This document shows, piece by piece, positions 5,426 through 34,575 of a stretch of 64,000 nt of DNA (its first letter is position 1; the number at the start of each line of letters is the position of its first letter). The stretch is taken from contig JAJFUG010000180.1 of NCBI GenBank assembly GCA_021372515.1, positions 1 to 64,000 of the forward strand. The letters are read 5' to 3'. Made by a program: the position numbers and the translations under genes. Under the pieces are notes generated by a model that was not told the DNA's origin, did not search any database, and saw only the letters and a list, made by a program, of their open reading frames with translations. Origin of the DNA: a bacterium (lineage in GTDB: Bacteria; Gemmatimonadota; Glassbacteria; GWA2-58-10).

Positions 5426-6616
5426 TCAGTGAGCTTGAGGCGCGCTCTGGGCGCCGGTTTCGTTATTGGCCGCGTACGGCGTCGCGGTGACTTTCATCCC
5501 CGGCCGCACGCGCTGGAGACCATCGACCACCAGGCGTTCCCCCGGGGCCAGCCCGTCTATCAGCAGCCACTTGTCGCCGATGGCGCGGTCCAGGGTGAGG
5601 GGATGGATCTGGATCTGGTCCTGCTCGTCCAGCACGTAGGCGAACGGGTTGCCTTTCGCGTCACGCATCACCGCGGGTTGCGGGGCCAGCACCGCGGCCG
5701 GGTTGTCGCCCTCCTTGATCAACGCCCGTACGAACATGCCCGGCAGCAGGATGCCGTCCGGGTTGGAGAACACCGCCCGCAGGGTGACCGAGCCGGTGCT
5801 GGGTTCCACGCTGATATCGCGGAACTGGAGCGTCCCGTCCAGAGGGTACTGGCCGTCATCGGACAGGAACAGCTTCACGTTCTGCTGGCCGTCGCCGTTC
5901 TGGTTGAGACGGCCTGCGGCCAGACGGCTGCGCAGACGGGCCAACTCGGCCGTGGACTGCTGGACATCCACGTAGATCGGGTCGAGCTGCTGGATCGTGG
6001 TCAGGGCCAGGGGCTGATAGGCTGTGACAATTGCGCCCTCGGTCACGCTGGATTTGCCGATGCGTCCCGAGATCGGGGCCGTGACCCGGGTGTAGGCCAG
6101 GTTGATGCTGGCGGTCTGCAGCATGGCTTTCCAGTACTGGATGTCGGCCTCGTTCTGGGTCAGGGCCGCCGCGGCGTCATCAACGTCCTGCTGGCTCACC
6201 GCCCTGTCGGCCAGAAGCTCCTTGTAGCGTTCGGCCCGGGCCCGGGTGGCGGAAAGGTTGGCCTCGGAACGTCCGAGGGCCGCCTTGGCGTTGTTCAGGG
6301 CCGCCTGGAACGGGGCCGGGTCGATCTGGTAGAGCACCTCGCCCGCCTTTACATCCGCGCCCTCGGTGAACAGCCGTTTCTGGATCAGGCCGCTGACCTG
6401 GGGACGGATCTCCGCGATGCGGAAAGGAGTCGTCCGGCCGGGAAGCTCGGTGGTCAGGGTCACCGGCTCGGTACCCACGGTGATGAAAGAGACTTCCGGC
6501 AGGTGCGCCGGACCGGACTGTGTCTTTTTGCACCCGGCCCAAGCGAGTAAGGACAGCAGAACCGCTGCCGTCGAAATCCATTTCATGGATTGTTTGAAAA
6601 ACCCATCGAACTGCAT
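5426..6616 (-). CDS. RND efflux periplasmic adaptor (membrane fusion protein), AcrA/MexA family lipoprotein
   Basis: 396 residues. The lipobox L-A-W-A-G-C marks lipidation at about Cys28. A lipoyl/barrel-sandwich hybrid follows (P-Q-V-S-G, then I-D-P-A-P-F), then the alpha-helical hairpin (about 95-170), the second lipoyl half (A-P-I-S-G-R-I-G) and beta-barrel/membrane-proximal domains, as in AcrA. It bridges the permease and the outer-membrane factor. The start at 6616 has GGAGG 7 nt upstream; the internal ATG at 6586, which would give a shorter signal peptide, has no ribosome binding site. First gene of the structural operon; the TetR gene upstream is the obvious candidate regulator. Confidence 0.95.
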   Translation of the reverse strand: MQFDGFFKQSMKWISTAAVLLSLLAWAGCKKTQSGPAHLPEVSFITVGTEPVTLTTELPGRTTPFRIAEIRPQVSGLIQKRLFTEGADVKAGEVLYQIDPAPFQAALNNAKAALGRSEANLSATRARAERYKELLADRAVSQQDVDDAAAALTQNEADIQYWKAMLQTASINLAYTRVTAPISGRIGKSSVTEGAIVTAYQPLALTTIQQLDPIYVDVQQSTAELARLRSRLAAGRLNQNGDGQQNVKLFLSDDGQYPLDGTLQFRDISVEPSTGSVTLRAVFSNPDGILLPGMFVRALIKEGDNPAAVLAPQPAVMRDAKGNPFAYVLDEQDQIQIHPLTLDRAIGDKWLLIDGLAPGERLVVDGLQRVRPGMKVTATPYAANNETGAQSAPQAH

Positions 6617-6970: not shown

Positions 6971-7594
6971 TCAGGAGACTTTTATTCTTTCAAGGAACAG
7001 GTTGAAAACGGCCTCGATATTTTTCGAAAACGGGTGCTGCTCCGGGTTTTCCAGCCAGAGGAACAGGAACGCGTTGGTCAGGCTGTCCAGGGCCACGGCC
7101 ATGTAATAGGGATCGAGCAGGCCCTTGATTTTGTTTTTGGCGATGGCGTTTTCGAACACCGCGGCCAGCTTATGCAGGAAATGCTCGTAGTTCCCTTTCA
7201 TTTCACAGTCCAGCCCGGCCTTGACATTGACCTTGGCGCCCTGGGTCTCGGTGAAATACAGGCGGATCAAGGCGGCGTTTTCGGAAAACACCTTTTCCTT
7301 GGCTTTGATATAACTCTTGATTTTTACTAACTCGTCCTCATCCGAATCGAGGGCCCGGTTCAGCTCGATATGGAATTTCTCGGCCTGCTCGGACACCAGG
7401 GCCTGGTACAGGGACTCTTTGTCCTTGAAGAAATTGTACAGGGTGCCCACCGCGAACTCGGCTTTCTGTGCGATCTCCTGCATCGAGACGTTGTGGAAGC
7501 CTTTCTGCGAGAACAGCTCGAGGGCCGTTTTGATGATCTCGCCGCGATGGGCCAGTCTCTTGCTCTCGCGAAAGGTGCATCGGGCACTGCACAT
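6971..7594 (-). CDS. TetR/AcrR-family transcriptional regulator
   Basis: 207 residues. The N-terminal helix-turn-helix is clear (I-I-K-T-A-L-E-L-F-S-Q-K-G-F, then M-Q-E-I-A-Q-K-A, then G-T-L-Y-N-F-F-K-D-K-E-S-L), with a helical ligand-binding C-terminal domain ending in I-E-A-V-F-N-L-F-L-E-R-I. Members are usually dimeric repressors released by a ligand, often a pump substrate. It lies directly upstream of the RND operon on the same strand, with a 354-bp gap, so I infer local control of the pump. The ATG at 7594 is preceded by AAGGCGGG; the first residues are Cys/Arg-rich and a slightly later start is possible. Confidence 0.92.
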   Translation of the reverse strand: MCSARCTFRESKRLAHRGEIIKTALELFSQKGFHNVSMQEIAQKAEFAVGTLYNFFKDKESLYQALVSEQAEKFHIELNRALDSDEDELVKIKSYIKAKEKVFSENAALIRLYFTETQGAKVNVKAGLDCEMKGNYEHFLHKLAAVFENAIAKNKIKGLLDPYYMAVALDSLTNAFLFLWLENPEQHPFSKNIEAVFNLFLERIKVS

Positions 7595-19274: not shown

Positions 19275-22200
19275 ATGCTCAGACACAAACGCTGTCTTCT
19301 TGGTATATCACTGTTGGCCCTGCTGCTGCTTGCGACAGGTTCCGTCCGGGCCGAGAAGAAATCGGTCCGGATGTCGCAGGGCAACAACCTGGGTCTGGTT
19401 TTCGGACTTGACCGCAATATCCTGTACGGGGGCGGTGACAATCTTCACCAGTTCCCGCGCGGTTCGGGCAACATGATCTTCAGCTATGACTTAAGTTGGG
19501 GCCCTTCGGTGGCCCACGACCTGAACGGCGACGGGGTGACGGATGACACGACCCAAAGCTGCCAGCGAGGAATGTGCTGGCGCAGCAATGTCGCCACTCT
19601 GGAAGCCCACGACCAGATCGAGGCGCTCTGGAACGCCGGAGAGAACCTGCAGATTGCCACCAGCCGCATCGAGGTCAACCGCATCTGGTCCTCGCTGGAT
19701 GCCGACGACATCGCTGACTGGCCGGTGGAGTTCCGCGAGGGCCGCAGTGAGGGCGGCGCCCCGATTATACACGGCGCCGAGACGATAGTAGGACGTTTCA
19801 CCGACACCTACGAGCCCTGGATCCCCTTCCCCTCGGGCGCCTCCCTCGAGTACAGCTTCTATTTCCTGAATTTTGCCGAAAGCAACAACATGGTCTACGG
19901 GCATCTGTTCATCCGGAACATGTCCGAGTACATCAAGTGGACTCCGCTGGCCTCGTTCCGGGACCGGGTGGCAAACACCCCCAACGGACAGACCTGGGAA
20001 ACCTGGACCATGACCTACCAGACGCACTCCCTCACGCTCGGATCCGACCTGATGGGCTGGATCTATAACCCGGCCAAGGCTATCACCGGGAACATCGACG
20101 CGGACGGGCTGGTGAGCGCCTTTTCCCCGCCCGAGGCCCCGATCATCGCCCAGAAAGTGCTGCGCCAGCCCTCGTTCAACGGCGAGACCATGGAGCTGAC
20201 CAATACGAACATGCGCGGGACATCCGCCTATGGGTTCGACGGGCAGAGGGACATCATGGAAACGGGCTTTCCGGTCGGGCTGGCTTTCCGCGCCCAGCTC
20301 GGCGAACCCTACGACCCCGACCTGTATCCCGGGCAGATCAGCCCCTGGACCGGCAAGCAGCTTTTCGGTTGGCCGGGACGGATCGTACCGGACGATCCCA
20401 ACGACCTCTACCACAAGTGGCTCTGGGGCAGAAACTGCGGTCTTGGCACGACCTGCTACGGGGCTTTGCATAATTTTGCGCCCCGCGACAGCACGAGCAT
20501 GGACTTCGTCCTGATGTTCGTCCCGGTGCCGGCCGGCCAGGCCTACCAGCTCAAGACCACGGATATCGGAAACATCCTCGACCCGGGGATACAGGAACAC
20601 CTGAAGCGGGTGGAGAGCTACGCCGATGTGGCGGCGACCGTGTTCAGCGGCGGATACATCCTGCCCGAGACCCCCGTGCCGCCCCAGTTGACCATCATCC
20701 CCGGCGACCGTCAGGTCACCGTCACCTGGAGCGATGTCAACGTCCAGACCCCGGACGCCTATTACTTCTTCCTCCAGGCCAATCCGGAGCTCGATCCCGA
20801 GCATGTCTACCGCGAGTACGACCTGGAGGGCTACCGTCTTTACCGCAGCTTCGTGGGGCCCTCCGACTCCCACTCCGAGCTGATCGACGAGTGCAGCATG
20901 TCGGCCGGCAACCTGCATTTCTATTTCGTCGACCGGATGGATGACGACACCGGCCTCTACCGCATGCGCAACGGGGCGCGGGTCTGGTACGCCCTGGTGC
21001 CTTTCGACCGCAACATCGATCCGGTCAGCGGCCAGGAGTTCAGCCTGCCCGGACCGGGCACGGGCAAAGTCTGGAACCGGCCGGGCGAGGGCCTGTTCAA
21101 CGTCATTCCGCGCAGCGAGGCCAGCAATTTCAAGCCCGCCTCGATCAACAGCCTCACTTTCACCCACGGGCCGGGCACCGCGGTGGACGGACTGCCGGTC
21201 TCCTCGGTCAAGCTGGCCGGGGACGGTAACGGCAGGCTGCTGGAGGCGCCCAAGTTCCTGATGCCGCCGTTGCGCGAGATCGCCCTGATCCCGGTGAACA
21301 ACGAGCGGATCACCGCCGACCTGAACCTGACCCTGCTCTGCTCCCGCGAGGACCAGGACTGGGGTTGCCGCAACAAGGCCCTGCGGTATTTCGACGTGAC
21401 CGAAAGCACCGGGAAACAGGGCGTGGAATCGCCGGCGCTCAAGGCTTTCGGCGACGACCTCCAGATTATCGACGTGCCGGGGCCCATGGCCCAGGACGGG
21501 ATGGTCTACACCCTGCGGATGACTTTCGAGAACATGTCCAAGGTCATCAACGACCTCAACCGGCTCAACACTATGGATGCCGGCGGCTACACCGGCGGAT
21601 CGGTCTCCGAGATCGAGGGCGGCTGCGGTTACCGTGAACCGGCCTACGCGCCCAACAACCTGGCCTACATGCAGACCGGGCGGTTCAAGATCACCTGGAA
21701 GGACGCCGGCGGCGGCTACCTGACCGTGGAAGTGCAGGACGAGACGCGTTCCCGGACCGTGTCCTACTCTCCATACCTCGGAGATCCGGAACGCGGCTGG
21801 GGTTTCTGGACTGTCGAGGGCTACGGCGGCCGGATGGACCTTTTCGACTCGAACAACGGCAATTACTGGAGCGAATGGCATGACAACGTCCCGCTGGATC
21901 AGCGCACGGTCAGGATGGAACAGCGGCTCCCGGCCGACAACACCGAGCAGTTCGCCCTGTGGGTGAACGGCCAGGCCTGGCTGGTCAACGGCGAGGGCGG
22001 GATCACGATGCCCCAGGCCGGAACGGTCTGGACCCTGGATAACGCCTACGGTGAATGGAACAACACGCAGACAGAATTCACCCAGTACCCGGACCTGCCA
22101 GCCGTTGGCGACAAGTGGCAGATCCAGGTCAAGGCGATGTCCCTCGACCCGAACGATGCCGACCTGGGCAAAATCAAGGTGGTGCCGAACCCCTACCTGG

Positions 22201-22538
22201 CCAGCTCGTTCCTCGACCTGTCGCCCAGCTCGCGCCGGATCGAGTTCGTCAACCTCCCTGACCGCTGCACTATCCGTATCTACACGCTCAGCGGCAACCT
22301 GGTGAACGTGTTGAACCATGTCGGCGCCAACCGCAACGGGTGGGGCACCTACACGGACTGGGACAGGCTGAGCGACAGCCAGCCCCGTGAGTTCACCGGA
22401 TGGGACAACCACGGGGGGACGGAACCCTGGAACCTGAGGAACCGTTTCGGCGCTACCGTGGCCAGCGGGCTCTATATCTTTCACGTGACCGACAGCCGGG
22501 GCAAGTCGCAGATGGGTAAGTTCTACATTATCGAATGA
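19275..22538 (+). CDS. large secreted protein with FN3-like region and FlgD/T9SS-type C-terminal domain
   Basis: 1087 residues; AGGAG 8 nt before the ATG. It has a classical signal peptide (about 1-27) and a long beta-rich region with no recognised catalytic motif. A fibronectin-III-like stretch lies near 470-560 (R-Q-V-T-V-T-W, then L-E-G-Y-R-L-Y-R). The C-terminal module of about 110 residues starts K-V-V-P-N-P-Y, contains C-T-I-R-I-Y-T-L-S-G-N-L-V and ends S-G-L-Y-I-F-H-V-T-D with a final G-K-F-Y-I-I-E. That module matches FlgD-Ig/T9SS type A sorting domains. I infer export to the surface, possibly via the neighbouring PorV-like protein and the TonB-dependent receptor. The exact function is unknown. 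Confidence 0.85.
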   Translation: MLRHKRCLLGISLLALLLLATGSVRAEKKSVRMSQGNNLGLVFGLDRNILYGGGDNLHQFPRGSGNMIFSYDLSWGPSVAHDLNGDGVTDDTTQSCQRGMCWRSNVATLEAHDQIEALWNAGENLQIATSRIEVNRIWSSLDADDIADWPVEFREGRSEGGAPIIHGAETIVGRFTDTYEPWIPFPSGASLEYSFYFLNFAESNNMVYGHLFIRNMSEYIKWTPLASFRDRVANTPNGQTWETWTMTYQTHSLTLGSDLMGWIYNPAKAITGNIDADGLVSAFSPPEAPIIAQKVLRQPSFNGETMELTNTNMRGTSAYGFDGQRDIMETGFPVGLAFRAQLGEPYDPDLYPGQISPWTGKQLFGWPGRIVPDDPNDLYHKWLWGRNCGLGTTCYGALHNFAPRDSTSMDFVLMFVPVPAGQAYQLKTTDIGNILDPGIQEHLKRVESYADVAATVFSGGYILPETPVPPQLTIIPGDRQVTVTWSDVNVQTPDAYYFFLQANPELDPEHVYREYDLEGYRLYRSFVGPSDSHSELIDECSMSAGNLHFYFVDRMDDDTGLYRMRNGARVWYALVPFDRNIDPVSGQEFSLPGPGTGKVWNRPGEGLFNVIPRSEASNFKPASINSLTFTHGPGTAVDGLPVSSVKLAGDGNGRLLEAPKFLMPPLREIALIPVNNERITADLNLTLLCSREDQDWGCRNKALRYFDVTESTGKQGVESPALKAFGDDLQIIDVPGPMAQDGMVYTLRMTFENMSKVINDLNRLNTMDAGGYTGGSVSEIEGGCGYREPAYAPNNLAYMQTGRFKITWKDAGGGYLTVEVQDETRSRTVSYSPYLGDPERGWGFWTVEGYGGRMDLFDSNNGNYWSEWHDNVPLDQRTVRMEQRLPADNTEQFALWVNGQAWLVNGEGGITMPQAGTVWTLDNAYGEWNNTQTEFTQYPDLPAVGDKWQIQVKAMSLDPNDADLGKIKVVPNPYLASSFLDLSPSSRRIEFVNLPDRCTIRIYTLSGNLVNVLNHVGANRNGWGTYTDWDRLSDSQPREFTGWDNHGGTEPWNLRNRFGATVASGLYIFHVTDSRGKSQMGKFYIIE

Positions 22539-22609
22539 GCCCGGTCAGACTTATCGGCACAGACAAACGCGCTTGCTGTCCTTACTTCGTGAATATATGG
22601 AGGTCCGAT

Positions 22610-23821
22610 ATGTTATGGAAAACTGCATTCAGAGCCTGGTCCAAAGCCTGCGTGCTGCTGCTGCTGGTCACGCTGCCTTTGCTGGGCCAGGGCGTTTCGC
22701 GTCAGGAATACTCCGGCCTGGACAAGTACCTTACCCAGGGGCGGCCGTCCGATTACTCCTTCGCGGGAGTGCGGGCCGCGGAGTTCCTGACCATCCCGAT
22801 CGGGGCGCGGGGCATCGGCCTGGGTGAATCCTACTCGGCGCTGGCCGATGATATCAGCGCAATCTGGTGGAACCCCGCCGGCCTGGGTTTCCTGAAGAAC
22901 AAAGAGGTGATGGCGACCGTGGTGGACTATACCCTGGACATCACCTACAGCTACGCCGCTTTCGCCACGCCGGTGTCTGACGGGAAGGTGGTGGTCGGAG
23001 GGTTTTTCGGCTATCTGAACATCCCAGACATGGAAATCACCACCGTCGTCAACCCCGAGGGCACGGGCCACAATTTCGACGCTTTCGATTTCCAGATGGG
23101 CGGCTCCCTGGCTTACAACTTTTCGGACCGCTTTGTCGGTGGGATCAATCTGAAGTACGTGCACCAGGACGTTTTCAGCAACATCGGCGGCGACGCTTTC
23201 GCTATCGACGCCGGAGCGATCTACTACACGGAGTTCATGGAGCGGGAGATAAGGTTCGCTTTCTCGGTGCAGAACCTGGGGACCAACATCACCATGCAGG
23301 GGCCGAACCTGATCTACGATGTGGGGCCCGAGACCCGCGACGGCCTGATCCCGGACGGATACAGCGACTATTCCACCGACAAGAACGCCATGGCCCGCCG
23401 GGGGGCCCGCCAGATGTTTTTCAAGACCCACACCTACCGCCTGCCCACGGTGGTCAAGCTGGCCCTGGCCTACAACGTGCTTACCACGGAGAAGGCCAAC
23501 TGGCTTGTTTCGGGCGAAATCTGGCGCAACAGCAACATCCCGATCAGCTATGCCACCGGCACCGAGTTCAACTACAACTTCAACCCCTTCTATTCCGGGG
23601 CGCTCCGTCTGGGCTGGAAAATCCAGACCGACGAGTTCACCGGGGACCGGGACCAGTTCGGTTACGAGTACCTGGGGGATGACCCGACTTTCCGGGGCCT
23701 GAGCTTCGGCGGCGGCTTCCAGCGCAACATGGGCGGCCGGGTGGTGAAGTTCGATTACGCCTATCAGAACAAGGGTCGGCTCACCGCGGATAACTATTTC
23801 ACCATCAGCCTCGGGTTCTGA
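22610..23821 (+). CDS. PorV/PorQ-family outer-membrane protein
   Basis: 403 residues from the ATG at 22610, with GGAGG 6 nt upstream. A signal peptide (about 1-25) is followed by the family hallmark near residues 45-85: A-A-E-F-L-T-I-P-I-G-A-R, then D-D-I-S-A-I-W-W-N-P-A-G-L. This is a FadL-like beta-barrel of the PorV/UPF0164 group, ending in aromatic L-G-F. In type IX secretion PorV binds cargo C-terminal domains at the outer membrane. Its position right after a protein with such a C-terminal domain supports a shuttle role; no other T9SS gene is in the window. Confidence 0.9.
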   Translation: MLWKTAFRAWSKACVLLLLVTLPLLGQGVSRQEYSGLDKYLTQGRPSDYSFAGVRAAEFLTIPIGARGIGLGESYSALADDISAIWWNPAGLGFLKNKEVMATVVDYTLDITYSYAAFATPVSDGKVVVGGFFGYLNIPDMEITTVVNPEGTGHNFDAFDFQMGGSLAYNFSDRFVGGINLKYVHQDVFSNIGGDAFAIDAGAIYYTEFMEREIRFAFSVQNLGTNITMQGPNLIYDVGPETRDGLIPDGYSDYSTDKNAMARRGARQMFFKTHTYRLPTVVKLALAYNVLTTEKANWLVSGEIWRNSNIPISYATGTEFNYNFNPFYSGALRLGWKIQTDEFTGDRDQFGYEYLGDDPTFRGLSFGGGFQRNMGGRVVKFDYAYQNKGRLTADNYFTISLGF

Positions 23822-26539: not shown

Positions 26540-27943
26540 ATGTCAAAAATATTGATCATCGACGATGACGTGAAATTCACCGTTCTGTTACGTCTATGTA
26601 TTGAGAGGCTGGGTCACGAGGTTGAATCGGCGCTGACTCTCAGGGAAGGCCTCAAGGCCGCCCAAACCGGGAGGTTCGATATCGTGTATCTTGATGTCAA
26701 ACTGCCGGATGGAAACGGTCTGGCTTTCATTCCTGAGATACATCAAACACAGTCTTGTCCGGAAGTGGTGATTATAACTGGAGACGGCAGTGAGTGCGGG
26801 GCTGAACTGGCTATTCGCAGCGGCGCCTGGGATTATATCGTAAAAACTTCCACGAACGATGCGAAAATCCTCCCGCTGGTGCGTGCCCTGCAGTACCGCG
26901 AGCAAAAAATCAATGCGAACAGAAAGATAGTGTTGGACATGCAGGGCTTGATCGGTAGCAGTCCTCAGATAAAGGTCTGTTTTGATCTGTTGGCGGATGC
27001 TTCCACCACAGATGTTCCGGTGCTTATTACGGGTGAGACAGGAACCGGCAAGGAGCGATTCGCCCGCGTGATACACTCCAACAGCACCCGTGCCGGAGGG
27101 AATTTCGTGGTTGTGGATTGTGCGGCCCTGCCCGAAACCCTGGTGGCGAGCCTTTTGTTCGGGCATCGCAAGGGGGCGTTCACCGGGGCCGATCAGGACC
27201 GGGAGGGCCTGATCCGTCAAGCCAACGGAGGGACTCTGTTTTTGGACGAGGTCGGTGAGATGCACCTCGACTTGCAAAAAAGTTTCCTGCGGGTTATTCA
27301 GGAACGGCGGTTCCGGCCGCTCGGAAGCGGCCAGGAGGTGAGCAGCGATTTCAGGCTTATCGCCGCCACCAACCGGAATCTGGAATCGGAGGTCGAGCAG
27401 GGCCAGTTCCGGAGAGACCTTTACTATCGTCTCAAGACCTTGAACATCGAGATACCGCCTTTAAGAAACAGGCCCAAGGATATAAAAGAGTTGATGCTTG
27501 GGTACGTCTCAAAAACGTGTGAAAAGATGAAGATAGAGATGAAAGGAATTTCGCCGGAGTTTCTCGAAGCCATGATCCATTACGAATGGCCCGGGAATGT
27601 CAGGGAATTGATAAATGCTGTTGAGAAGGCTGTTGTTTCGGCGCATGGAGAATGCGTGCTCCACCGGGTGCATCTTCCGATGGAGATACGGCTCAAATCC
27701 GTAAAGGAGAGCCTGTCCGGCCTCGGTTCCCTGAAAGAAAACAACAGCGCTCTCATCGTTTTTTCGGAGCAGCTCCCGGAGTGGGTCGAGTTTCACAAAA
27801 AAGCCAGAAATGATGCTGAACTCAAATATCTGCAAGACCTTATCCGCCTTTCCGGGGGGCGGGTGAAAGATGCCTGCCGCATTTCCGGGCTGTCGCAATC
27901 CCACCTGTATTCGGTCCTGAATCAGCACGGGCTTAAGCTTTAG
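26540..27943 (+). CDS. sigma-54-dependent response regulator, NtrC family (orphan)
   Basis: 467 residues: receiver (1-120; D-D-D at 8-10, phospho-acceptor Asp52, Lys in I-V-K-T), sigma-54 AAA+ domain with Walker A G-E-T-G-T-G-K-E, intact G-A-F-T-G-A and L-F-L-D-E-V-G, and a C-terminal Fis-like helix-turn-helix (D-A-C-R-I-S-G-L-S-Q-S-H-L-Y-S-V-L). No histidine kinase gene adjoins it. Its codons are visibly less GC-rich than those of housekeeping genes in the window, as in the adjacent relic region. The sigma-54 promoter and tandem palindromes just downstream make the chemotaxis operon a likely target. Confidence 0.95.
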   Translation: MSKILIIDDDVKFTVLLRLCIERLGHEVESALTLREGLKAAQTGRFDIVYLDVKLPDGNGLAFIPEIHQTQSCPEVVIITGDGSECGAELAIRSGAWDYIVKTSTNDAKILPLVRALQYREQKINANRKIVLDMQGLIGSSPQIKVCFDLLADASTTDVPVLITGETGTGKERFARVIHSNSTRAGGNFVVVDCAALPETLVASLLFGHRKGAFTGADQDREGLIRQANGGTLFLDEVGEMHLDLQKSFLRVIQERRFRPLGSGQEVSSDFRLIAATNRNLESEVEQGQFRRDLYYRLKTLNIEIPPLRNRPKDIKELMLGYVSKTCEKMKIEMKGISPEFLEAMIHYEWPGNVRELINAVEKAVVSAHGECVLHRVHLPMEIRLKSVKESLSGLGSLKENNSALIVFSEQLPEWVEFHKKARNDAELKYLQDLIRLSGGRVKDACRISGLSQSHLYSVLNQHGLKL

Positions 27944-28087: not shown

Positions 28088-28125
28088 ACTCCGGTCCGAC
28101 CGGAGTACTCCGGTCCGGCCGGAGC
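28088..28125. promoter_or_regulatory. tandem 19-bp palindromes, probable enhancer (UAS) sites
   Basis: ACTCCGGTCCGACCGGAGT (28088-28106; perfect 9-bp arms) is followed immediately by ACTCCGGTCCGGCCGGAGC (28107-28125); the copies differ at two positions. They lie about 90-120 bp upstream of a sigma-54 promoter, the usual place for dimer sites of NtrC-type activators. The orphan activator gene ends 145 bp upstream. Confidence 0.65.
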
Positions 28126-28211
28126 ATATACCTGCTTTAAACTCCCTATTGTTTTCACTCTCCAGTGGATAACTCGTTGTCAATCAATCTGATGCCTTAT
28201 CGTAAAATTTC

Positions 28212-28226
28212 TGGTACGCCGGTTGC
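28212..28226 (+). promoter_or_regulatory. sigma-54 (-24/-12) promoter of the chemotaxis operon
   Basis: TGGTACGCCGGTTGC: the -24 element TGGTAC (one mismatch to TGGCAC), correct 5-base spacing and the -12 element TTGC with the invariant GC. Expected transcription start near 28238, about 40 bp before the first gene of the operon. The rest of the 335-bp gap 27944-28278 holds the hairpin and palindromes described separately. Confidence 0.7.
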
Positions 28227-28278
28227 CTAAGGAGAACCTGCCTCGGCGAAGACCAATCTCGACCAGAAAGACCGGAAA

Positions 28279-28644
28279 GTGAAACTGATCGCATTTATAC
28301 CAGGAATATCCAGAACAGGCCAACGTCTGAGCCAGGCGGTCGAGGAGGCCCTGCCGGGCAGGGGGGTTGAGATCTTGAAAAGCCGCGCGGAGCTGCTCGG
28401 CAGGCTGAGCGAACCGCTGCAGGAAAGGCTCTGTGTCCTGCTGTACGCGGAGAACGAAGCGGACCTTTCCTTTTTTGTCGCACACGCGGGCAGGCTGATG
28501 GATTTCAAGCTGGTCCTGATTCTTCCGCGGCCCGGACGCGAAATCCTCTCGCGCGGACTGAAACTGTGCCCCCGCTACATCGGATACGCGGATGACGATT
28601 TCAGCGAAGTGACGGCTGTATTGCGAAAGATACTGCACCACTGA
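28279..28644 (+). CDS. small protein with pseudo-receiver-like fold, first gene of chemotaxis operon
   Basis: 121 residues starting at a GTG. The alternating strand/helix pattern (K-L-I-A-F-I-P; R-L-S-Q-A-V-E-E-A-L; R-L-C-V-L-L-Y-A; K-L-V-L-I-L-P; F-S-E-V-T-A-V-L-R-K-I-L) resembles a CheY-type beta-alpha fold. The acidic pocket, phospho-acceptor Asp and switch Lys are not at the expected places, so it cannot work as a normal receiver. I do not recognise a named family. Downstream of the sigma-54 promoter and upstream of cheW by about 140 bp, it may be a structural or partner protein of the chemoreceptor array. Confidence 0.6.
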   Translation: MKLIAFIPGISRTGQRLSQAVEEALPGRGVEILKSRAELLGRLSEPLQERLCVLLYAENEADLSFFVAHAGRLMDFKLVLILPRPGREILSRGLKLCPRYIGYADDDFSEVTAVLRKILHH

Positions 28645-28786
28645 TCGTATGGCCGGGTTCGAGAAGGAGCGGCGGACCAGGGAAGGATCGAGAACGGAGC
28701 ATCGGATGAGGGAAAATGGAGCTTTCGGAGAGACGGTTGAGCGATCGAACCCGGCCAGGAATTTAACAACAACCCAAGGAGGCAGT

Positions 28787-29308
28787 ATGTCGGAAAGCAA
28801 TATCGAATCCTCTCTCTCCCGTGCGGGGCAGTCACTTGCAGAACAGACCCACCTGTCCGGCAAGTACCTGACTTTCCGCCTGGGTGGCGAGGAGTACGGC
28901 CTGCAGATTCTGAAAGTCAAGGAGATCATCGGCCTGATGGATATCACGCAAATGCCGCGGACGCCCGATTACATCCGGGGGGTGATCAACCTCCGGGGAA
29001 AGGTGATCCCCGTGATGGGCCTGCGGGACAAGTTCAACATGCCACACGTGGAGGACGATGAAAAGACCTGCATCATCGTAGTCGAAACCCGGTCGGAGGG
29101 CAGGGCGATACTGATGGGGGCCCTGGTGGACGGTGTCTCGGAAGTGCTCAACATCCAGGAAGATCAGATCGAGAACGCCCCGGAGTTCGGGGCGGATGTG
29201 AAGACGGACTTCGTTCTGGGGATCGGCAAGACCCGGGAAAAGGTCATTCTGCTTCTCGATATCGACCAGGTGATATCCGGTGAGGAAAAAAAGGTCATAT
29301 TCGCGTGA
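28787..29308 (+). CDS. cheW: chemotaxis coupling protein CheW
   Basis: 173 residues from the ATG at 28787, which has AGGAGG 4 nt upstream; the frame is open further upstream but lacks a site. The CheW/SH3-like fold is evident: Y-L-T-F-R-L-G-G-E-E-Y-G-L, V-K-E-I-I-G, M-P-R-T-P-D-Y-I-R-G-V-I-N-L-R-G-K-V-I-P, and D-G-V-S-E-V-L. It links chemoreceptors to a CheA kinase. It is followed 45 bp later by an MCP gene; no cheA, cheY, cheB or cheR is in the window, so the kinase must be elsewhere. Confidence 0.95.
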   Translation: MSESNIESSLSRAGQSLAEQTHLSGKYLTFRLGGEEYGLQILKVKEIIGLMDITQMPRTPDYIRGVINLRGKVIPVMGLRDKFNMPHVEDDEKTCIIVVETRSEGRAILMGALVDGVSEVLNIQEDQIENAPEFGADVKTDFVLGIGKTREKVILLLDIDQVISGEEKKVIFA

Positions 29309-29353
29309 GTTATGATTCACTCGGGCATTTACACTTTGAACGGGGAACGGGAA

Positions 29354-31459
29354 ATGTTCAAGAACATGCGTCTTGCTCTGAAACTCGCCGTCGGCTTTGC
29401 CGTTGTCCTCATCCTCTCCGCGGTCGTGGGTTGGAGAGGGATCGAAAGCATGAGCGCTCTGAACAAAGCAATAACCGATCTCAACAACAACCAGTTCCAA
29501 CCCGCAACCACTGTGGCCAACGCCAACATCGCCCTGATCAGTTGGAACAGAGCCATGATAAATCATATCATCACCACTGATCAGGAGGGAATGGCAGCCC
29601 ATGAAGCCAAGATGATGGAGTTCAGGAAGGAAGTGCTCAAGCAGTTGGATAACCTGGGAGAGATGAAACTCACGGATAAAGGCAAGGAATATTTGCAAAC
29701 TCTGAGGGAGGAATTCAACAGCGCGATCCCGATTCGCGATAAAATAGTCGAGCTTTCAAAAGCCGGCAATCAGGCCGAAGCCCAGAGTGTTCAGGTCAAA
29801 GAATTCCGACCCATTATCAATAAAATGGACGAAGATATGACCATGTTCCTCAATCTCCAGCAGGAACTGGTGGATTCCACTGTTACGGCTACGGACATTC
29901 TGTACGCCTCCAGTTTCAAGCTGATCTTGTTTATCCTCGGGCTGGCGACCCTTCTGGGAATCGGGGTGGCCTATATCATCACGGGCGCTATTGTCAAGCC
30001 GGTGAGACAGGTGACCAAGGTAGCGAAGGAGATTGCCAAGGGGGACCTCGAACAACAGGTCGGCATAGTCCAGAAAGACGAGATCGGGACACTGGCCGAC
30101 GCTTTCCGCGACATGATCAAGGCCCAGAAATCGAAGGTCCAGGCGGCGGATGAGATTTCGAAGGACAATCTGAATATTACGGTGGAGATCGCTTCGGAAA
30201 AAGACACGCTGGGGCACGCTCTGCAGCGGATGCTGACCAGCCTGCGAGATAAGAATGACCGAATCAACAAGTCCATGGAGGAGGCCGCCGAGAACGCCAA
30301 GTTCCTGGAAGAGGCCTCACCGGTGCTGAAGGCCGCCTCCGGTAAGGACCTGACCAACACGATGACCGGGGAGTACAAAGGCAAGCTGGGCGAGCTCAAG
30401 GACAACATCAATACTACGATCACAGCGCTGGATGAGGCCCTGACCCAGGTCTCCGAGGCGGTGGAGCAGGTCTCCTCGGCCAGCGAACAGATCTCCAGCG
30501 GCAGCCAGAGCCTGGCCGAGGGCGCCAACGAACAGGCCAGCGCCCTGGAGGAGGTTTCCTCCAGCCTGGAGGAAATGGCCTCCATGACCCGCCAGAACGC
30601 CGACAACGCCAACCAGGCTAAAAACCTGGCCGGGACTTCCCGCGACTCGGCGACCAAGGGCGCCGAAGCCATGAACCGCATGACCGATGCGATCAACCGG
30701 ATCAAGACCTCCAGCGATCAGACGGCCAAGATCGTGAAGACCATCGACGAGATCGCGTTCCAGACCAACCTCCTGGCCCTGAACGCCGCGGTGGAGGCGG
30801 CCCGCGCCGGCGAGGCGGGCAAAGGCTTCGCCGTGGTGGCCGAGGAAGTGCGCAACCTGGCCCAGCGCAGCGCCGCCGCGGCCAAGGACACGGCAAGCAT
30901 GATCGAGGAGGCGGTCAAGAACGCCGAGGGCGGAGTGGAGATCACCGATGAGGTCGTGATGATCCTGAACGAGATCACGGAAGGAATCTCGAAGGTGAGC
31001 GACCTGGTAAACGAAATCGCCGCCGCGGCCAGGGAACAGGCCCAGGGTATCGACCAGGTGAACAACGCCGTGGCCCAGATGGACAAGGTGACGCAGCAGA
31101 ACGCCTCCAACTCGGAGGAGTCGGCCAGCGCGGCCGAGGAGCTGAACAGCCAGGCCGAGGAGCTCCAGAACATGGTCGGAGAATTCCAGCTCAGCGTCAG
31201 CAACGCAAAAGCACAGGTGCGTTCGGCCGCCTCGGCCCCGGAGGTGAAAAACGCCGGCGTACTGAAGCCATCGCCGGCACACGTGGCCCGTCCGTCCAAC
31301 GGAAAAGTCAAGATCAACCGTCTGGCGGCTGTCGCCTCCAAGTCCAATGGGAGCAAGGTCGAGGTGAGAAAGATGAAGGAGAAACCCTCGAACGGGCACG
31401 GCAAGGCTGCGCCGTCCAGTCTTATCCCGCTGGAAGACAAGGATTTCAGTGACTTCTGA
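29354..31459 (+). CDS. methyl-accepting chemotaxis protein
   Basis: 701 residues from the ATG at 29354. TM1 (about 8-27), a four-helix-bundle periplasmic sensor (about 30-185), TM2 (about 187-209), HAMP (about 210-262), then a long cytoplasmic coiled coil with the conserved hairpin tip near 463-510 ([22 protein letters not shown]). The C-terminal tail (about 610-701) is Lys/Ser-rich and carries no NWETF-type CheR tether. The ligand is unknown. It forms a unit with cheW and the pseudo-receiver gene and is followed by a strong terminator. An upstream in-frame ATG (29312) would add 14 residues before TM1. Confidence 0.95.
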
Positions 31460-31476
31460 TCCTGGCCGATCCTGCA

Positions 31477-31520
31477 GGGGAGGGACCACATGGAGGTGGT
31501 TTCTCCCCTTCCGTGTTTTT
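31477..31520 (+). terminator. intrinsic terminator of the chemotaxis operon
   Basis: GGGGAGGGACCAC (31477-31489) pairs with GGTGGTTTCTCCCC (31495-31508), followed by a U-rich stretch ending TTTTT at 31520. Bases 31521-31890 contain no convincing gene; one short open frame there lacks a ribosome binding site. Confidence 0.85.
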
Positions 31521-31890: not shown

Positions 31891-34575
31891 ATGCCAACGG
31901 GCGATGCGATCGAATCTCAGAGGACGACATTGACTATGCGGACTGATCGGATGCGGCTGCTGTTTGTCGGGGTGGTGGTGTTGTGGACAGGTATGTTGAT
32001 ATTCTCGTTCCTGATAACCTGGAGGCAGTCAGTCAACTGCCTGAAATCCCTCGCTCTGACCGAAGCCCGCTCCGACTGTAACAGTGACCTTGCCAGTCAC
32101 GTCTGGGCTGCCTTGCAAGGCGGCGTTTATGTTGCGCTCACCGAGAAGACGCCGCCCAATCCCTACCTTTCCGGCCTTCCGGACCGGGATGTCACGACGA
32201 CATCCGGCCTGAGGCTGACTCTGGTGAATCCGGAATCCCTGGTCCGCCAGGTGCATGAACTGGTGCGGGAGCGGTGCGGTGTGCAAGGCCATATCGCGAG
32301 CCTGGACCCGATCCGGCCGCAGAACGCGGCCGATGCCTGGGAACACCGGGCGCTGTGTGTGCTGGAATCCGGTTCGGAGGAAGTCAGTTCCCTGGAAATG
32401 ATGGACGGCAAGCCTTTCCTGCGCATGATGAGGCCTTTGACAATACAAACCTCCTGCCTGAAGTGCCATGCAGCTCAAGGCTATAAAAAGGGTGATATCG
32501 GGGGCGGGATCAGCATCTCAATCCCCTTTGCGCCCTATTTGGCGGTAGCGGCTAAACAGCGGATGATTTCCGCTCGCGCTCATTTGCTGATTGGGTTGTT
32601 CGGATTATCGGGGCTGTTGCTGGGCATAAAAACTTACAACCGGTATCTTCATGACTTACGAGCCAACGAGGAGAAATACCGCCGGCTGTTCGAGGATGAT
32701 TTGACGGGTAATTTCCTGGCTACGCCGGATGGCGCCGTCATCGACTGCAACCTTGCCTTTGTGCGGATGCTTGGGTACGGAAACAAATCCAGTGTCCAGA
32801 AAAGCAAAATCTCGGTTCTGTATTCCGGGCTTTCTGAATGGGGAATTATTGTCGATGCACTGGGTGCAAACGGAAAACTCAAAAACCTCGAAGCCGTTCT
32901 TAAGTGCAAAGACGGTAGAGAGATAAATGTTATCGAGAATCTGGTCGCAGTGTTCGACGAGGCTGGGGAAATATCAGGAATAAAAGGCTATATCTTTGAC
33001 ATCACCGAGCGCAAACAGTATGAGCAGGCGCTACGGGAAAGCGAGGAGAGGCTTGAATTCGCTCTTAAAAAGGTCCACACCGGAGGGTGGTATTTCGACC
33101 TTGTGAATCACACGGTTTTTCACACTTTGGAGCATGATCGCATTTTCGGCTATGAATCGAGGCTTCCGGTTTGGACTTACGAGATGTTTCTCGATCACAT
33201 TATCCCAAAGGATCGGGACGAACTGGACCGGCGGTTCCGCGAAGCCGTTGAATCTTGTGGCGACTTGGAATACGAGTGCCGTTTCCGCCGCAGGGATGGC
33301 GAGGTGCGCTGGCTCTGGTTGACTGGTGAGTATCTGCACTATGATACTGCAGGGATCAAGCGTATGGCCGGGATTGTGCAGGACATCACCGAAAGAAAGC
33401 AAGCGGAGGCGGAGCGGGAAAAATTGCAGGCAAAGCTGAACCAAGCACAGAAGATGGAGTCCGTGGGGCGGCTGGCTGGCGGCGTGGCCCACGATTTCAA
33501 CAACATGATTGGGGTGATCCTTGGTCATACCGAGCTGGCGCTTGAGCAAATGGACGCTGCCAACCCGATCCTTTTCAATCTGCTGGAAATCCAGGAAGCC
33601 GCGCAGCGTTCCGCCGACCTGAACCGGCAACTGCTGGCCTATGCCCGCAAACAGGTGATAGCACCCAGAGTGCTGGACCTGAATCAGACCGTGGAAGGTG
33701 TGCTCAAGATGCTGAAACGGCTTATCGGAGAAGATATCGAACTGGTTTGGCGACCCGGTGAGGGCCTCTGGCCGGTCAAGATAGACCCGTCCCAGATCGA
33801 CCAGATTCTGGCCAACCTGTGTGTCAACGCCCGGGACGCTATCACCGATGTGGGCAAAGTCACCATTGAGACAGCCAACAGAGTTTTTGACGCGGAATAC
33901 TGTTCCAGGCACACGGGTTTTGAGCCCGGCCAATACGTGATGTTGGTCGTGAGCGATAACGGCTCCGGTATAGAGAAGGATATATTATCGAAAATCTTCG
34001 ATCCGTTTTTCACGACCAAGGAGATGGGCAAGGGAACCGGGCTGGGGCTGTCCATGGTCTATGGTGCGGTCAAGCAGAACAGAGGCTTTATCAATGTCTA
34101 CAGCGAAACCGGTTATGGCACGACTTTCAAGATCTATCTTCCGCGCCATGATGGTCTGTCGGTACAGATATTGATAGAAGAGACGGCACTACTATCCCTG
34201 CGTGGCCAGGAGACTATTCTGCTGGTAGAGGATCATCCCGGTTTGTTGAGAATGATCAATGAGATGCTTGAGAGACAGGGTTACACTGTTCTGGTGGCAG
34301 GCACTCCGGGAGAGGCTCTTCGCCTGGCCAGCGAACACGCCGGGAAAATCCACCTGGTGATGACCGATGTGATTATGCCGGAAATGAACGGCAGGGAACT
34401 GGCCAGGAAACTGTTGCTTCTCCACCCTGATACCAAGTGTCTTTTCGCGTCCGGCTACACAGCCGATGTAATCACAAGTAAAGGTGTGTTGGACGAGGGA
34501 GTGAAGTTTATCCAGAAGCCTTTTTCATTGATCGATCTGGCGACCAAAGTGCGCGAGGCGCTGGATAATGATTGA
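31891..34575 (+). CDS. hybrid histidine kinase with periplasmic Tll0287-like heme-type sensor domain, two PAS domains and a receiver
   Basis: 894 residues. TM1 (about 22-44), a periplasmic DUF3365/Tll0287-like sensor (about 50-225) containing C189-L-K-C192-H193, a c-type heme attachment motif, TM2 (about 228-248), PAS 1 (about 265-375), PAS 2 (about 385-505), HisKA with His534 (V-A-H-D-F-N-N-M), HATPase ([14 protein letters not shown]) and a C-terminal receiver (phospho-acceptor Asp826, Lys in Q-K-P-F). I infer a redox or gas sensor. There is no output partner next to it. A start at 31936 would remove 15 residues; neither site has a strong ribosome binding sequence. Confidence 0.92.

Follow-up and report, generated by a model that had tools for sequence, protein, structure and literature searches.

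The 64,000-nucleotide stretch of bacterial DNA analysed here (the window) carries a gene for an NtrC-type activator, followed by two adjacent palindromes, a -24/-12 element and genes for a pseudo-receiver (psrec), CheW and a chemoreceptor. What do the palindromes do, and which protein reads them? In Desulfovibrio vulgaris, sigma-54 activator genes are co-localised with the promoters they serve, the sites lie mostly within ~100 nt upstream of the promoter, and the regulons are small, with 1-4 operons; similarity of the motifs, which are given in a figure of that report, is not always in step with similarity of the DNA-binding domains (Kazakov et al. 2015, PMC4641369). LuxO uses two cooperative sites ~100 bp upstream of its sigma-54 site (PMC11407668). 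In Geobacter, sigma-54 promoters are predicted ahead of che/mcp operons, nine of them in G. sulfurreducens (Tran et al. 2008, PMC2577667). We propose herein, with a probability of about 0.86, that the palindromes form a tandem enhancer through which the adjacent activator would drive a sigma-54-dependent psrec-cheW-receptor transcript, and that the cassette was acquired by horizontal transfer.

The palindromes, as read directly from the sequence, are 19-mers arranged head-to-tail with a step of 19. Palindrome 1 occupies 28088-28106 (ACTCCGGTCCGACCGGAGT) and palindrome 2 occupies 28107-28125 (ACTCCGGTCCGGCCGGAGC); neither has an assigned strand, both contain the core CTCCGG-N5-CCGGAG, and each is a predicted site for an activator dimer. 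The build of palindrome 1 recurs in relatives. The first-pass annotation had described two adjacent, near-identical 19-bp palindromes ahead of a -24/-12 element, and this description proved exact: the pair has a tandem-palindrome score of 24, the highest attainable, and none of 1000 dinucleotide shuffles of the intergenic region (335 bp) equalled it, the best scoring no more than 20. A genome scan that it had called for, with widespread occurrence counting against its reading, found the exact palindrome at a sole locus, 28088-28125; the runners-up have 2 mismatches and are all single. Palindrome 2 is separated from the -24/-12 element by a gap of 86 bp, and the centre of the pair lies 105 bp from the -24 element. 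On sequence grounds, the pair is very probably where the adjacent NtrC-type activator binds.

This activator (467 aa; 26540..27943, + strand) matches Pfam Response_reg, Sigma54_activat (E 1.3e-66) and AAA_lid_14; its receiver and its AAA+ sigma-54 interaction domain, which contains GAFTGA, are joined to a Fis-type helix-turn-helix. GAFTGA, the Walker motifs and the C-terminal helix-turn-helix mark it as a member of the NtrC family, and in the translation D52, T80 and K102 are intact, as in a receiver that can be phosphorylated. Its recognition helix reads GLS-QSH-LY-S. The three-domain architecture is shared with LuxO and NtrC; however, the window's activator belongs to another clade with other half-sites, and its predicted target is a receptor operon rather than small RNAs or nitrogen genes. 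Its earlier description as an orphan is only partly right: a kinase gene adjoins the activator gene in ~30 of 56 relatives, and in the window itself a hybrid histidine kinase (31891..34575, +, assigned by Pfam) lies 4 kb downstream and is a candidate partner. That kinase gene sits beyond the terminator-like hairpin described below. The protein has a Tll0287-like domain with a CxxCH motif; the motif, CLKCH, in this sensor region suggests a c-type haem sensor. Co-transfer of the kinase with the activator was considered and found unsupported, because paralogues up to 66% identical occur in the same genome.

The -24/-12 element (28212-28227, +; TGGTACGCCGGTTGCC) has 1 mismatch to TGGYACGNNNNTTGCW, and its position is kept in relatives. 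Its letters at 28212-28226, TGGTAC-GCCGG-TTGC, are near-consensus, with GG and GC at the fixed spacing of a sigma-54 promoter, and the genome encodes RpoN in single copy (one Sigma54_DBD gene, E 8.7e-64). From the end of the element to the start of the first gene (GTG, 28279) there are 52 bp, which bears out the earlier estimate of about 50 bp, and the start site formerly proposed at ~28238 agrees with the +1 predicted here. In the stretch separating the palindromes from the promoter, a possible IHF site (28182-28194, 1 mismatch) was dropped, since the window holds 20 such sites against 13.7 expected.

The steps that would join these parts into a circuit, namely phosphorylation, looping, the point where transcription starts and its continuation through cheW and the receptor gene, are what we infer. 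Some kinase would phosphorylate the receiver domain of the activator, and the phosphorylated protein would oligomerise on the paired palindromes. Looping of the DNA across ~105 bp would then bring its AAA+ domain to sigma-54 RNA polymerase, to be remodelled at 28212-28227, and a single transcript from ~28238 would run through psrec, cheW and the chemoreceptor gene and end near 31509.

By comparison with relatives, a frequent gene order was found: histidine kinase, activator, an intergenic region with palindromes and a -24/-12 element, and pseudo-receiver, with variable genes after it. In roughly half of the pseudo-receiver loci these include CheW and/or a receptor; the other loci have BacA, a hybrid kinase or an M48 peptidase there, or no gene in common. 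At L092:3116-3919 and L094:2139-3617, for instance, the following genes differ widely (BacA-type protein, M48 peptidase, hybrid kinases). Because these genes vary between relatives, the constant output would be the pseudo-receiver and not chemotaxis. The regulatory elements were counted at pseudo-receiver loci retrieved by protein profile alone, about half of which come from genomes already found via the activator and the rest from a phylum sample. A -24/-12 element with a score of at least 11 is present within 250 bp upstream at 32 of 56 loci, versus 0.7 when shuffled and 1 when the opposite strand is read. Tandem palindromes scoring at least 20 are present at 20 of 55, versus 0.1 in shuffles. 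Where both features occur (21 loci), the distance from pair centre to -24 is 99-141 bp in 13. Moreover, among 28 held-out loci with an activator upstream, 23 have a -24/-12 element scoring at least 10 behind the activator stop. The palindromes of relatives are mostly constant in build (arms of 5-6 bp, a spacer near 5 and a repeat of 18-22 bp) and changeable in arm sequence. A strict search for TCCKG-N5-CMGGA behind activator relatives gave 12/57 versus 5.2 in random windows, which was too weak; it was replaced by tandem-palindrome scoring because the half-site varies. At L140:1778-3170, an activator relative (55% identity in the best segment) is split between frames, through a sequencing error or as a pseudogene, and two identical TTCCTGTGGCGCAGGAA palindromes lie behind it.

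The changing half-sites can be set beside the recognition helices of the activators that precede them. Helix RPR-LY-A occurs with a TCTTG half-site in 6 of 6 loci, xxR-LY-E with TCCGG in 7 of 8, xSR-LY-A with TCCTG in 8 of 14, and RTR-LY-Q/T with TTCAC in 7 of 14. The window's own class, xSH-xY-A/S, occurs with TCCGG in just 5 of 14, and TCCGG-type matches have a background of 18% in random 320-bp windows. Over the five helix classes, 33 of 56 half-sites match (permuted mean 9.6, maximum 20), although the half-site classes were drawn after the first locus set had been seen. The rules were then fixed before new loci were fetched; on these held-out loci 8 of 18 match, versus 3.4 when permuted, with 17 of 20000 permutations as good. 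One held-out locus, L243, has helix RSHLYS, one residue off the window's QSHLYS, together with TCCGG palindromes. This success rate is modest: a palindrome of the predicted class is missing at most loci with RTRLYQ and at several with E, and many loci carry none of the four half-sites. At L104 (~5452-5480) and L106 (~7429-7457), activators with helix RSQLYR are accompanied by a different palindrome outside the four classes, which at L104 reads GTCGCA-N5-TGCGAC.

Part of this association is shared ancestry. In a quick tree, though, the TCCGG/E class falls on several separate branches, and L123 and L125 (E, TCCGG) are nested in the RTRLYQ/TTCAC clade; simple inheritance is therefore insufficient for the whole of it. 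Judged from sequence, the half-site covaries with the activator's recognition helix, and the effect is real yet partial. Comparison across relatives supplies the sites, the promoter element, the conserved order and spacing and the site/helix covariation on which our reading is built. The first-pass proposal of an enhancer-dependent promoter served by the upstream NtrC-type activator draws support from the loci retrieved by profile only, the kept distance, the covariation and the lack of further copies of the palindrome in the genome.

Three other explanations have to be weighed against a tandem enhancer for the adjacent activator. The palindromes might serve another protein, a repressor or one of the genome's other activators, while the neighbouring activator works elsewhere. 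NtrC-type activators are indeed numerous in this genome (107 first-look candidates, of which 16 were scored), and the poor fit of the window's helix class to TCCGG points the same way. Such an arrangement is nonetheless unlikely, given that relatives from several phyla have palindromes directly behind the activator gene, that the half-site follows that activator's own helix in held-out loci too, and that a site unique in the genome fits a dedicated local regulator. A second view concerns the promoter. On its own the -24/-12 match is weak evidence: with at most 1 mismatch there are 68 matches in the whole genome versus 60 for a reversed control pattern, a chance frequency, so that its position is informative and its existence is not. 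The operon could then be read from some other promoter. This we regard as very improbable, since no sigma-70-like site was detected between the activator and psrec, and elements in a similar place recur both at the protein-retrieved pseudo-receiver loci and behind the activator stop in the held-out set, far above expectation in the former.

The palindromes might, finally, be DNA or RNA hairpins, for example a repeat element or a terminator that ends the activator transcript, and not protein sites. In favour of this, their arms are self-complementary and G+C-rich, and they begin 145 bp past the activator stop codon; against it, no T-run follows them, the terminator scan has no entry there, an Rfam scan gave zero matches, the palindromes included, and the genome has no further copies of them. 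Among relatives, arm sequence differs whereas the spacer stays near 5 and the step at 18-22 bp, upstream of a -24/-12 element, all of which makes a hairpin extremely improbable.

The first gene of the putative operon, psrec (28279..28644, +), encodes a pseudo-receiver of 121 aa. An AlphaFold2 model (pLDDT 94; alignment including 18 relatives) has a (beta-alpha)5 fold, and the best Foldseek hits of the model in the PDB are receiver domains, among them the phosphorylation-independent HP1043; the probability is 1.00 and TM 0.6-0.7, with a best E-value of only 1.9e-3 and 16% identity. In a 19-row alignment of the family, the conserved DD, D, T and K are absent from the ends of strands 1, 3, 4 and 5. 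Because these phosphorylation residues are missing, the name pseudo-receiver given earlier is correct under the definition of Bourret et al. (2025, PMC12632262), who treat aspartate-less receivers such as HP1043 and AmiR with the same fold. It does not denote a known family: across the 19 members, Pfam and NCBIfam gave not one credible match to a curated model. Unlike those receivers, psrec stands alone and falls outside Pfam and NCBIfam, including Pfam's minor pseudo-receiver families.

The second gene, cheW (28787..29308, +; Pfam CheW 1.7e-38), most likely begins at 28787, behind the ribosome-binding site AAGGAGG, rather than at the longest-ORF start 28649. The gap of 142 bp between psrec and cheW counts against a single transcript. 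A 13-bp inverted repeat of the GGCCGGGTTCGA type (28650-28662 and 28746-28758) spans this gap; an RNA structure there was rejected, as the folding energy is ordinary despite the 13-bp arms (z -0.78). The third gene encodes a methyl-accepting chemotaxis protein (29312..31459, +; Pfam 4HB sensor, HAMP and signalling domain) and is followed by a terminator-like hairpin (31476..31509, +; 14 pairs and a T-rich tail), where the operon probably ends. Terminator-like sites overall are no commoner than in shuffles, and the argument for this hairpin is therefore its placement. If cheW and the receptor gene are co-transcribed with it, the pseudo-receiver may tune receptor arrays without phosphorylation, which is a guess.

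The nearest relatives of the activator (40-55% identity, nearly full length) are mostly from Desulfobacterota, with some from Hydrogenedentota and Aminicenantota, whereas among 100 further genomes from its phylum the best match is 43% identical and covers less of the protein. In a quick tree, the window's activator groups with these relatives, and a fully supported split sets it apart from proteins of its own phylum. This genome has one copy of psrec, which is absent from 199 relatives of the window's phylum, and present in 28 of 35 genomes with activator relatives, in 41 of 297 from the phylum of Oryzomonas, in 72 of 258 from the order of Desulfobulbus rhabdoformis and in 26 of 155 from the class of a Syntrophales genome. 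The simplest reading is that this genome acquired the cassette horizontally.

The promoter very probably belongs to the known sigma-54/enhancer class, and this type of circuit is already known. The D. vulgaris systems (PMC4641369) likewise have a local activator gene and upstream sites, a likeness of layout, but in the activator clade studied here the half-site changes together with the recognition helix. The Geobacter che/mcp operons (PMC2577667), in Desulfobacterota, share predicted sigma-54 promoters before chemotaxis-related genes, while the accessible part of that report describes no such activator, enhancer or pseudo-receiver. Less ordinary are the covariation itself and the pseudo-receiver family, which lacks a name and frequently supplies the gene next to the switch; a literature search, with most subscription journals outside it, found no earlier report of the cassette or of an NtrC-type helix/half-site code. 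The circuit is found again in Desulfobacterota, Hydrogenedentota and Aminicenantota as well as in the window's phylum, and a guess from sequence has become a testable circuit. If the correspondence also holds in binding, then for many NtrC-type activators of the clade that are still uncharacterised, the enhancer sites could be predicted from the protein. Tentatively, and with somewhat more doubt than belief, we suggest a transferable signalling cassette of activator, private tandem enhancer, sigma-54 promoter and aspartate-less receiver, which would plug into whatever follows (chemoreceptors, kinases or others). Such cassettes might be insulated from one another as 3-4 recognition-helix positions and the half-site change together, forming a readable specificity code for the activator clade.

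Elsewhere in the window, two genes were noted by eye. One (19275-22538, +) encodes a large secreted-type protein whose C-terminus resembles a type IX secretion sorting domain, and the gene after it (22535-23821, +) encodes an outer-membrane protein like PorV/PorQ.
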